This document shows positions 39,988-44,584 of a stretch of 64,000 bases of DNA, one piece after another. This DNA is from Phaeobacter sp. CECT 5382 (GTDB lineage: Bacteria; Pseudomonadota; Alphaproteobacteria; Rhodobacterales; Rhodobacteraceae): contig NZ_CYSG01000001.1 in the NCBI RefSeq assembly GCF_001457775.1, forward strand, positions 310,001-374,000. The letters are read 5' to 3'. Made by a program: the position numbers and the translations under genes. The notes beneath the pieces are model-generated. The model saw nothing but the letters and a program-made list of their open reading frames with translations. It was not told the DNA's origin and searched no databases. Numbering within the stretch: position 1 is the stretch's first letter; each line of letters opens with the position of its first letter.

Positions 39988-40093
39988 TTTCCGCTCATCC
40001 TCATATTTATTTCTCTGCCCCCCTTCAATCTGACGCCCCTTAGACTAAACTGCTGCCTCCGAGTCGAGTAGATGCGTCGAGAAGGTGCACCCC

Positions 40094-40717
40094 ATGAGCA
40101 AATCAGATCCTTTCGGTTTCGATATGTCCGTCAGTTCTGCCAAAAAGAAAAATCCGCGTGGACGCCGAGCCGCAACCGGGGCTTCCGAGACCTCTGTGCG
40201 GGTCTGTGACAAAGAGGGCTGCAAAGAAGCCGGCAAGTTCCGCGCGCCCAAGGCCCCCGATGTGCTGGATGATTTCTTTTGGTTCTGTCAGGAACATGTC
40301 CGCGAATATAACAACCACTGGAATTTCTTCCAAGGCACCACCGAGGCCGAGTTGAACGCCCAGCAATCCAAAGACAAGGTCTGGGAACGCCAGACCAAAC
40401 CCATGGGTGACCCTGAGGCCCGCGCCTGGGCCCGCCTTGGCATCGAGGATCCGCATCAGGTTCTGGGGGGCAATGCGACCCAGAACCCCGGTCGATCCGC
40501 CGCAACCGGACGCCGCCTGCCCCCAACCGAGCGCCGCGCCATCGAAGTGCTGGAGGCCAAGGATGACTGGTCAAAGGCCGACATCCGCAAGGCCTATAAA
40601 AAACTCATCAAGGTTCTGCACCCGGATATGAACGGCGGCGACCGCAGCCAGGAAGAACAGCTGCAAGAAGTCATGTGGGCCTGGGATCAGATCAAGGACA
40701 GCCGCAGCTTCAAATAG
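40094..40717 (+). CDS. J-domain (DnaJ-like) protein with N-terminal extension
   Basis: A 207-residue protein with the J domain at the C-terminus (about residues 150-207): DDWSKADIRKAYKKLIKVLHPDMNG, containing the HPD motif that stimulates DnaK. The first 150 residues hold KKKNPRGRRAATG and a CDKEGCKEAGKFRAPKAP cysteine pair, and lack the zinc-finger and substrate domains of DnaJ itself. ATG at 40094 is selected over a GTG at 40085 because GAGAAGG is then well placed. A strong terminator follows. It is a specialised DnaK co-chaperone; client unknown. Confidence 0.9.
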   Translation: MSKSDPFGFDMSVSSAKKKNPRGRRAATGASETSVRVCDKEGCKEAGKFRAPKAPDVLDDFFWFCQEHVREYNNHWNFFQGTTEAELNAQQSKDKVWERQTKPMGDPEARAWARLGIEDPHQVLGGNATQNPGRSAATGRRLPPTERRAIEVLEAKDDWSKADIRKAYKKLIKVLHPDMNGGDRSQEEQLQEVMWAWDQIKDSRSFK

Positions 40718-40993: not shown

Positions 40994-41980
40994 ATGACTG
41001 ATGGCATGCTGGATATGAATGCAAAACCGACCGATAGTATTTCGGTCCGCGATGTCTTCGGCATCGACACAGACATGACCATCAAGGGCTTTGCCGAAGG
41101 CTCTGACCGGGTTCCAGCGATCGACAACACCTATAAGTTCGACCCCGACACCACCATGGCCATTCTGGCCGGGTTTTCGCACAATCGCCGTGTGATGATC
41201 CAGGGCTACCACGGCACAGGCAAATCGACCCATATCGAACAGGTCGCTGCCCGTCTCAACTGGCCCTCTGTACGCGTGAACCTCGACAGCCACATTTCCC
41301 GGATCGATCTCATCGGTAAGGACGCGATCAAGCTGCGCGATGGCAAACAGGTGACTGAGTTCCACGAAGGCATCCTGCCCTGGGCGCTGCGCAACCCCGT
41401 CGCCATCGTCTTTGACGAATACGACGCAGGCCGCGCCGACGTGATGTTTGTGATCCAGCGTGTGCTGGAACATGACGGCAAGCTGACCCTGCTGGACCAG
41501 AACGAAATCATTACCCCGAACCCGTTCTTCCGCCTGTTTGCCACTGCCAACACTGTTGGTCTGGGCGACACCACCGGTCTGTATCACGGCACCCAGCAGA
41601 TCAACCAGGCCCAGATGGACCGTTGGTCACTGGTCGCCACGCTGAACTATCTCAGCCATGACGCCGAAACCGCCATCGTTCTGTCCAAAGCGCCACATTA
41701 CAACACCGAGGCAGGCCGCAAGAGCATCAGCCAGATGGTCACCGTCGCGGATCTGACCCGCACCGCCTTTATGAATGGTGATCTGTCGACCGTGATGAGC
41801 CCCCGGACCGTGATCAACTGGGCGCAAAACGCCGAGATATTCCGCGACGTGGGCTATGCCTTCCGCCTGTCGTTCTTGAACAAATGTGACGAGCTGGAAC
41901 GCCAGACTGTCGCCGAGTTCTATCAGCGCTGCTTTGACGAAGAGCTGCCCGAAAGCGCCGCAAGCGTCAGTCTGGGCTGA
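40994..41980 (+). CDS. cobS: cobaltochelatase subunit CobS
   Basis: A 328-residue AAA+ ATPase subunit of the aerobic cobaltochelatase, which with CobT drives CobN to insert cobalt into hydrogenobyrinic acid diamide. Walker A is [10 protein letters not shown] near residues 73-82, Walker [11 protein letters not shown] near 137-146, and a sensor region [15 protein letters not shown] near 177-191. ATG at 40994 is chosen for AAGGA upstream and family length; the frame is open to 40895. The racemase-like gene starts 19 bases after its stop. cobN is not in the window. Confidence 0.95.
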
Positions 41981-41999
41981 TCAGACAAGGACAAGAACC

Positions 42000-42701
42000 A
42001 TGCATATTGGATTGATTGGTGGCATCGGTGTTGCGGCCACAGTGGTCTACTATCAACGGCTGACGGCCGCGATGGCAGTCCGCAATCTGCCGCTCCAATT
42101 GACCATTGTGCATGCCGATGTTCAGGAACTTATCCGCAACAATCTTGCGGATAACCGCGCGGCACAGGCCGAGGTATATGCCGGTCTGATCGACCAGTTA
42201 CACGGGGCCGGAGCCGATTGTGCCGCAATCACCTCGCTTGGGGGGCACTTTTGCTTTGACGAAACTGTGCCCTTGTCCAGCCTGCCACTGGTCTCTGCCG
42301 TGACGCCGCTGGACAGCTATTTCACCTCTCAGGGGCTGAAGACAGTTGGCCTTCTGGGCACTCGCGTAGTGATGCGCACAAAAGTCTATGGGCAGTTGAC
42401 GCAGACCCGGGCCGTGACACTGGCAGATGAAATTGACAGCTTGGGACAAAGCTACGTGGATATGGCCGTTGCCGGAACCTGCCCTCCTCAGCTGCGCGAC
42501 ACATTTCTGGATGCCGGGCAGCGTATGGTCGAGACCCTAGGTGCAGACGCCATTGTCCTGGCAGGCACCGACCTGAACCTTGCCTTTGACGGGCAGGATC
42601 CAGGGTATAGGGTTGTAGACGCTCTGGACGTACATGTGGATTTGCTGGCCCAGCTTGCGGCAGGTGACGCCGACCTCGATGAAGTGAGCGCGAAAAGATG
42701 A
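42000..42701 (+). CDS. aspartate/glutamate racemase-fold protein lacking both catalytic cysteines
   Basis: A 233-residue Asp/Glu racemase-family protein. It opens with [16 protein letters not shown], a family hallmark. The first catalytic cysteine, normally in a CNT motif, is replaced: the segment reads [10 protein letters not shown] with Ser79 at that position. The second, normally in GCTE, is AGTDL with Gly189. Other cysteines (74, 85, 161) are not at those positions. It is therefore unlikely to act as a cysteine two-base racemase. It lies 19 bases after cobS and overlaps cobT by 4 bases (ATGA), so it is embedded in the cobaltochelatase operon. Function unknown. Confidence 0.85.
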
Positions 42702-44584
42702 AAAAACCAAACGACAACCCAGCTGATCCCTTCAAAAAGGCGCTGGCCGAAGCCACCAAGGTCATGGCCAATGACCCAGAGCTGAGCGTGTCTTACACCG
42801 TCGATCCCTCTGGTGTGTCTGGTGACAACATGCGCCTGCCGCAGGTTAGCCGCCGCATGAGTCGCGAAGAAGTGCTGCTGGCGCGTGGCACGGCTGACGC
42901 ACTGGCCCTGCGCCGCAAATTCCATGACGATGCCACCCATGCCAAATACACTCCCCAGGGTGAGATGGCACGCGATCTCTATGAGGCGATGGAAACTGCG
43001 CGCTGCGAAGCGATGGGCGCACGCCACATGCCCGGCACCGCCAGCAATATTGACGTGAAGATCCGCAACGAAGCCATCCGGCGCGGCTATGACCAGATGA
43101 AGAGCTCTTCAGAGGCCCCTCTGGCGGCCTCGGCCGGTTATCTGGTGCGCCATCTGGCGACAGGGCGCCCCCTGCCGCAGGGGGCCGAAAATGTGATGGA
43201 GCTGTGGCGCGGGTTCATTGAATCCCAGGCCGGCGAAACGCTGGAAAACCTCGACGAAAAAATCGCCGATCAATCCGAGTTTGCCAAATTCGCGCGTCAG
43301 ATCATCTCGGATCTGGGTTACGGCGACCAGCTGGGCGACGACCCGGATGAGCTGGACGACAACCAAGACGACGAGGCCGAAGACAACGCCGAAGAACAGC
43401 CCGACCCAGACAGCTCTGGCCAGGATGACTCTGAAGACGAGCAGGCCGAAGCCGACGCCGAACAGGCGCAGGAACAGCAGCAGGACGAAAGCCAGGCCCA
43501 GATCTCGATGGATGAGCTGGCCGACGAGGAACTCGCCGAAGACACCGAGATGCCCGATGGCGAGGCCCCCTTGGAGCCGCCCCCGCCACCTGCCGCCTCG
43601 GAAGCGGATCCGGACTATAAGGTCTTTCTCGACGCCAACGACGAAGAAATCGCTGCCGAGGATCTGGCCGAACCGGCCGAACTGGAGCGCCTGCGCGCCT
43701 ATTTGGACCAGCAGTTGGAGCCGCTGAAAGGTGCCGTGAGCCGCCTGGCCAACAAGTTGCAGCGCCGTCTGCAGGCACAGCAGAACCGCTCTTGGGAGTT
43801 TGACCTTGAAGAGGGCATTCTGGATGCAGGCCGTCTGGCGCGGGTGATTGCCAACCCGACTACACCGCTGTCGTTCAAACGCGAAAAAGACACCGAGTTC
43901 CGGGACACTGTGGTGACATTGCTGCTGGATAACTCCGGCTCGATGCGCGGTCGGCCGATCTCTATTGCTGCGATCTGCGCTGATGTTTTGGCCCGCACGC
44001 TGGAACGCTGCAACGTCAAGGTCGAGATCCTCGGCTTTACCACCCGCGCCTGGAAAGGCGGCCTCGCCCGTGAGGCCTGGCTGAACGAAGGTCGCCCCCA
44101 GATGCCCGGTCGCCTGAATGATCTGCGCCACATCATCTATAAATCGGCAGATTCTCCCTGGCGGCGGGTGCGCCCCAATCTGGGGCTGATGATGAAAGAG
44201 GGCCTGCTGAAAGAAAACATCGACGGCGAAGCCCTGGAATGGGCCCACCGGAGAATGTTAGGGCGGCAAGAGGCGCGCAAGATCCTGATGGTGATCTCGG
44301 ATGGGGCGCCCGTGGACGACAGCACGCTCTCTGTAAACCCGGCCAATTACCTGGAAAAACACCTGCGCGATGTGATCGCCATGGTGGAGCGACGCAAGCA
44401 GGTTGAACTCCTGGCGATTGGTATCGGCCATGACGTGACACGCTACTACGACCGCGCCGTAACCATCACCGATGTGGAGCAGTTGGCCGGTGCTATGACA
44501 GAACAACTGGCCGCCCTGTTTGACAGTGACCCACGGGCCCGCGCACGAGTCATGGGCATAAACAACATCAGCAGAAGCGGCTAA
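42698..44584 (+). CDS. cobT: cobaltochelatase subunit CobT
   Basis: A 628-residue CobT. The N-terminal helical part covers about 1-200. A long acidic Asp/Glu/Gln-rich stretch lies at about 210-300, seen in CobT proteins. The C-terminal von Willebrand A domain has the metal-site motif [14 protein letters not shown] near residues 409-422 and [11 protein letters not shown] near 530-540. CobS and CobT form the ATP-dependent motor for CobN. Start overlaps the previous stop. The stop codon falls inside a GGCTAAG/CTTAGCC hairpin. Confidence 0.95.

Follow-up and report, generated by a model that had tools for sequence, protein, structure and literature searches.

The window, by which we mean the whole 64,000-nucleotide stretch of DNA analysed here, carries a racemase-like gene placed between two cobaltochelatase genes, with the following features:

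40994..41980, + strand: cobS, cobaltochelatase subunit, upstream neighbour (TIGR01650, 580.8 bits against a cut-off of 558.55)
41987..41991, + strand: AAGGA, Shine-Dalgarno-like, 8 nt 5' of the ATG (from sequence)
42000..42701, + strand: Cys-less Asp/Glu-racemase-fold gene, 233 aa, ATG at 42000 and TGA at 42701 (PF01177)
42228..42260, + strand: first catalytic loop, codons 77-87, with Ser79, Leu80-Gly81 and the family-specific Cys85 (from sequence and alignment)
42561..42575, + strand: second catalytic loop, codons 188-192 (A-G-T-D-L), with Gly189 in place of Cys and Asp191 in place of Glu
42698..42701, + strand: ATGA stop/start overlap of the racemase-like gene with cobT (from sequence)
42698..44584, + strand: cobT, cobaltochelatase subunit, downstream neighbour (TIGR01651, 812.1 bits against a cut-off of 759.05)

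The stop codon of cobS ends at 41980, leaving 19 nt to the racemase-like ATG, and this spacing, together with the ATGA overlap with cobT, is as an earlier sequence-only reading of this DNA had described it. Upstream of cobS lies a J-domain protein gene (window 40085-40717, + strand; PF00226, 41 bits). A search of the same genome returned no second match to the racemase-like gene at E ≤ 0.001.

The encoded protein is a member of the Pfam family Asp_Glu_race (PF01177), scoring 62.1 bits against a gathering cut-off of 31 (E 8.6e-17). Three NCBIfam-type models also matched it, all below their cut-offs: CuyB NF052483 (56.5 of 190 bits), TIGR00035 (49.2 of 93.1) and the Asp/Glu racemase model PRK10200 (32.7 of 417). 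When eight divergent relatives were compared with NCBIfam models, none passed an equivalog, which leaves no clue for naming, and one narrowly passed the TIGR00035 amino acid racemase model (94.2 vs 93.1 bits). An AF2 model of the protein (mean pLDDT 95.8, pTM 0.91) is predicted to adopt the two-lobed racemase fold, its best match among solved structures being 5hra_A, an Asp/Glu racemase with D-Asp (Z 30.2, rmsd 1.7 Å over 224 residues). The next matches were other Asp/Glu racemases (Z 22.3-25.6), and Foldseek placed 2zsk, 3ojc and 5hra at its top ranks. The Pfam match alone would label these proteins Asp/Glu racemases, a label that the active site contradicts: cofactor-independent racemases carry a Cys/Cys or Cys/Thr pair across the lobes, and here the pair is Ser79/Gly189.

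Residues at the two catalytic positions

In a profile alignment to EcL-DER (5ELL), Ser79 aligns with Thr in the C-T-N-T motif and Gly189 with Cys in G-C-T-E, and the register is identical in alignments to 3ojc and 2zsk, confirming that Ser and Gly occupy both racemase catalytic positions, as had been noticed from the sequence. To follow these residues beyond the window we used a genome scan in which the best 80 of 330 stretches encoding a relative were kept as named loci; Ser79, Gly189 and Cys85 were identical in 81/81 sequences (those 80 plus the window copy). Adding divergent members from samples of the family, class and phylum gave a set of 107 rows, which we compared with 21 ordinary racemases that these searches also turned up. 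Thinning at 80% similarity left 85 of the clade's 134 sequences in a separate alignment (A1).

Position 189 was Gly in all 107 clade rows and Cys in all 21 ordinary racemases, a split to be read with the rows being related to one another and found by similarity to the family profile, with no random draw. The first site was less uniform: 93 of the 107 have Ser, 13 Ala and one Leu, against Thr in 7, Cys in 7, Ser in 4 and Ala in 3 of the 21; the ordinary racemases, then, vary at their first site and keep the second Cys. Around these positions the clade has residues of its own: position 80 was Leu, Ile, Met or Val in every clade row and never Asn (Asn in 19/21 ordinary racemases), position 152 was Tyr in 107/107 (Ile or Met in 21/21 ordinary racemases, Tyr in none), position 191 was Asp in 104 and Glu in 3 (Glu in 21/21), and position 85 was Cys in 104 and Ala in 3 (Cys in 0/21). 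His83 was replaced in 5/107 rows, and Thr121, Thr190 and Asp191 were mostly retained.

Of the 14 rows lacking Ser79, 13 are unlinked to the cob genes and one (L136) is cob-linked, and Ser79 was near-constant among cob-linked copies, being present in all those examined except L136. Gly189 and Tyr152 were kept both inside and outside the cob locus, including in sister clades and exported copies. Across the aligned sequences, loss of the second-site Cys is therefore the defining constant mark of the clade, while Ser79 is not fixed. A chance or strain-specific substitution is ruled out by the constancy of Gly189, which carries the observation beyond this strain. The expectation that the Ser/Gly pair as such would be conserved in Rhodobacterales held in part: the pair is common to many copies and its Gly is constant, but its Ser is replaced in 14 of the 107 clade rows. 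Because these 14 have Ala or Leu at position 79, Ser79 is not a clade-wide catalyst; nor can Cys85 or His83 be the sole catalyst throughout the clade, since the former is Ala in 3/107 and the latter is replaced in 5/107.

Distribution and linkage to cobS and cobT

Our family sample comprised 295 genomes, Rhodobacteraceae and relatives to judge from what their nearest hits are called, and 87 of them had some match to the gene at E ≤ 0.001. The clade itself accounted for 52 copies in 51 genomes (E < 1e-35); the remaining matches had E values of 2e-10 or weaker and were ordinary racemases in the six examined; one of these matches is the relic in genome G107 described below. We called a copy cob-linked when cobS lay on the same strand less than 2.5 kb upstream or cobT less than 2.5 kb downstream (less than 3 kb for the named loci). 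By this definition 39/52 family copies adjoin cobS and/or cobT and 13 do not, with flanks of only 1.5 kb in 30 of the 52 loci; five of the loci (L018, L023, L025, L028 and L031) show cobS but no cobT inside their 1.5-kb flanks. Among the named loci (best 80 of 330), 64 were linked and 16 unlinked. The distance to cobT was measurable for 34 of the cob-linked family copies, 13 of which show a stop/start overlap with it, and every clade-bearing family genome had a full cobS match except G256, a fragmented assembly with a piece of cobS.

The reverse relation did not hold. cobS was present in 283/295 family genomes and the clade in 51/295, so that the gene does not accompany cobNST in most genomes having it, and the cobS-gene-cobT order that the sequence-only reading proposed to look for in Rhodobacterales turned out to be common to many copies, with the gene itself absent from most cobS-bearing genomes. 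In a genus sample of 12 genomes, the clade was found in 3 and cobS in 10; six of the seven cobS-bearing congeners without the gene show a bare cobS-cobT gap of 162-189 nt. In the seventh, G005 (L155), the slot holds an unrelated frame of about 160 aa running up to cobT.

In 20 family genomes without the gene, chosen among those with the highest cobS scores rather than at random, the cobS-cobT gap ranged from 17 to 2979 nt, and in 10 of the 20 it measured at least 502 nt and contained open frames, not all of which are real genes. A second tenant recurs in this gap, a secreted-looking protein of about 135 aa with a FATCAGRL motif and a second Cys near its C-terminal end. It was found by tblastn in 35 loci (in some cases two loci of a single genome), both where the racemase-like gene is present and where it is missing, among them L010, L027, L035, L048, L100, L216 and L229, and was seen in six of the ten genomes with gaps of at least 502 nt. 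Some loci carry two copies (L219:1234-1638 and 1696-2103), neither of which passes a Pfam cut-off.

In one genome, G107, a 63-aa relic (L230:1103-1294) lies between retained cobS (91%) and cobT (82%) genes. The start of this relic resembles the gene (44% over 59 residues), its C-terminus resembles it by eye, and the overlap with cobT is kept along with little of the middle of the frame.

In a class sample of 385 genomes, the clade occurred in 19 (two of them from the window's family) and cobS in 294, and the two showed no association (cobS in 17/19 genomes with the clade vs 277/366 without, Fisher p 0.27). The 17 class genomes outside the family hold 19 copies, and neither cobS nor cobT lay beside any of these within the 8.6-15 kb examined, even though 15 of these genomes do carry cobS and 16 carry cobT. 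In all four non-alphaproteobacterial MAGs with the gene, neither CobS nor CobT was matched at E ≤ 1e-30; binning errors are possible in these, and two of the copies sit on short contigs (L096 on 3.1 kb, L104 on 5.7 kb). Among the 398 genomes of a phylum sample, searched at E ≤ 1e-25, the clade was confined to the window's own class; the ordinary second Cys is present in the other 10 matches (E 1e-25 to 3e-29). A plasmid collection gave no match to the gene at E ≤ 1e-15.

Neighbours of the unlinked copies vary, and include a TRAP transporter, a CoA transferase III, an MFS carrier, an S58 peptidase and a GMC oxidoreductase. That the unlinked copies might have a constant partner gene was considered and rejected: when the frames of 47 unlinked loci (19 from the class sample and 28 others) were compared all against all, the 60 most widespread groups listed were antisense shadow frames of the gene itself, lineage-local neighbours such as a methyltransferase common to six Bosea-type loci, and a few groups recurring in 3-5 unlinked loci with no fixed distance or orientation. 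Near three unlinked copies lies a frame (L065:6734-7723, L072:8494-9720 and L079:8492-9718, all on the - strand) that begins with a G-x-L-G-A-G-K P-loop and that, from this motif, we take to resemble COG0523/CobW-type GTPases.

A quick tree, built from 92 rows of the clade plus seven of the 21 ordinary racemases and leaving out the short copy L191, set the clade apart from these seven (SH-aLRT 100, with a long-branch warning). The deep branches consist of unlinked rows, and Bosea-type and Rhizobiaceae copies nest among the cob-linked ones (37/95 inner branches unresolved). Two genomes of family code f66 contain two clade members each, G370 (L172 and L176) and G582 (L168 and L177); the G582 copies sit in two deep branches (tree rows L187 and L196), and the G370 copy in L172, whose match starts only at position 42, was left out of the tree. 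The simplest history is that of an old solitary gene that was inserted between cobS and cobT in Rhodobacterales, was frequently lost there, and moved back out. The link to cob is real but probably positional: the location would be an inherited insertion into an operon gap that tolerates inserts, and the ATGA overlap would serve translation of the operon.

Proposed function and its alternatives

We propose that the gene encodes a stand-alone small-molecule enzyme of the Asp/Glu racemase fold with cysteine-independent chemistry, to which we assign a probability of roughly 0.6. The classical two-Cys site is gone, and the suggestion of the sequence-only reading that this might be an unrelated enzyme of the fold stays the best available. 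Such an enzyme would have given up two-cysteine 1,1-proton transfer. Its substrate may be a small carboxylate-type metabolite held between the two lobes, as the fold and the mostly retained Thr121, Thr190 and Asp191 suggest, with the carboxylate presumably bound at the helix N-termini that follow Thr78-Ser/Ala79 and Gly189-Thr190-Asp191, in space freed by the missing side chains. Another residue would then perform the chemistry, the candidates, chosen by conservation, being Asp191, Tyr152, His83 and Cys85; that Asp191 or Tyr152 carries it is a guess. The reaction would most likely be that of a one-sided lyase, isomerase or hydrolase rather than a racemisation. More tentatively, and at somewhat less than even odds, the clade as a whole, which is mainly alphaproteobacterial and mobile between contexts, may represent a Cys-free, one-sided lyase, isomerase or hydrolase that relies on Asp191 or Tyr152 instead of the Cys pair, a reaction class new to the superfamily, with a solitary role in metabolism or metabolite repair.

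The main rival is a ligand-binding pseudoenzyme or sensor that binds an amino or dicarboxylic acid and performs no chemistry. Both proton-transfer residues have been lost to small ones (Ser or Ala, and Gly) while the fold is kept, the model lies nearest to a ligand-bound racemase, and conservation alone fits an enzyme and a ligand-binding pseudoenzyme alike. We nevertheless consider this reading unlikely, as chemically able residues have become newly constant (Tyr152 in 107/107, Asp191 and Cys85 each in 104/107) and the neighbour comparison revealed no constantly adjacent effector or regulator.

The sequence-only reading had also suggested an accessory to the aerobic cobaltochelatase CobNST, acting as an adaptor, in assembly or in binding a corrin precursor, and co-translated with CobT. 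The linkage of 64/80 named loci (best 80 of 330), combined with the ATGA coupling, would also fit a real link to the chelatase within Rhodobacterales. The 39/52 linkage in the family sample, the near-constant Ser79 of cob-linked copies and the full cobS match in every clade-bearing family genome but G256 speak for it too. This proposal is nonetheless unsupported and, in our estimation, improbable, given that the clade reaches only a minority of cobS-bearing family genomes and 7 of the 10 in the genus lack it, that clade and cobS show no class-level association, that all 19 class copies outside the family lie away from cobS and cobT, that the four MAGs with the gene show neither subunit at E ≤ 1e-30, that G107 keeps both subunits around a relic, and that other sequence fills the slot (at least 502 nt) in half of the 20 genomes without the gene. 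Even in Rhodobacterales alone, a chelatase role would have to be dispensable in most cobS-bearing family genomes. The place in the operon is in this sense a warning, in that a conserved, translationally coupled gene in a B12 operon may still be a passenger.

A surviving amino-acid racemase or epimerase, in which Ser79 and one of Cys85, Thr190 or Asp191 formed the acid/base pair, finds partial precedent in PMC8142540: EcL-DER is active although one of its sites is Thr, and MMP0739, whose pair is Cys/Thr, has the base on the opposite side substituted. Each of these keeps one Cys, however. In OpaE (PMC12661438), the C90S mutant retains 4.8% activity, and C199S and the double mutant retain at most 0.3%. 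Although one of eight divergent relatives just passes TIGR00035, the window protein scores far below this model, the CuyB model and the Asp/Glu racemase model, Gly is incapable of proton transfer, and 14/107 rows have Ala or Leu at position 79, which together make this a very improbable reading of the gene.

The gene is under strong purifying selection. Its dN/dS was 0.136 against the Pseudophaeobacter leonis copy and 0.079 against that of Roseobacter sp. MED193 (cobS, in the same two comparisons, gave 0.041 and 0.032), and 10 Ruegeria pairs gave 0.067-0.118. That it is a decaying or non-functional gene carried in the operon, as the G107 relic and the patchy presence might suggest, is contradicted by this estimate (dN/dS 0.07-0.14) and by the full-length frames and constant residues of copies down to 32% identity, and is hardly credible.

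Comparison with known enzymes of the superfamily

The whole fold is shared with the L-Asp/Glu-specific racemase EcL-DER (5ELL, 5ELM) and with the Asp/Glu racemase 5HQT/5HRA/5HRC (5ell_B Z 25.6; 5hra_A as above), and the EcL-DER/5HRA group and the racemase-like protein also have in common a GG start with YY, an LGT loop and a D...H near the C-terminal end. They differ at the active site, where the Thr/Cys of EcL-DER is replaced by Ser79/Gly189, the Asn-Thr after the first site by Leu-Gly, and the Glu after the second by Asp. The best PDB sequence-profile match, the aspartate racemase homologue PH1733 (2ZSK; E 1.9e-24), likewise lacks the first-site Cys, having Ala there; its Asn-Thr loop and its second Cys, within G-C-T-E, are both retained, unlike in the racemase-like protein. 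The cysteate racemase CuyB (NF052483) gave the top NCBIfam match, yet at 56.5 bits against the 190-bit cut-off. NozR (PMC10156859) is another member of the superfamily with both Cys residues.

Arylmalonate decarboxylase (AMDase) belongs to the same superfamily and, according to PMC4996985, catalyses a non-racemase reaction with Gly at one catalytic position: Gly74 occupies the first site and a required, proton-donating Cys188 the second. The racemase-like protein departs from this pattern, with Ser79 first and Gly189 second, and did not match the AMDase model at E ≤ 0.001; one distant relative gave a weak match (18.6 of 225 bits). Because both site cysteines are absent here, the mechanisms of EcL-DER, MMP0739, OpaE and AMDase are inapplicable as they stand.

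In the open-licence literature of PubMed Central we recognised no paper on a Cys-less or cob-linked member, though this does not establish that none exists. The fold is already known, and what is new is the active site of the Cys-less clade. The characterised members described in PMC4996985, PMC12661438, PMC10156859 and PMC8142540 use at least one catalytic Cys, and a Cys-free branch retained so widely would offer a case for testing how this fold gains new reactions.
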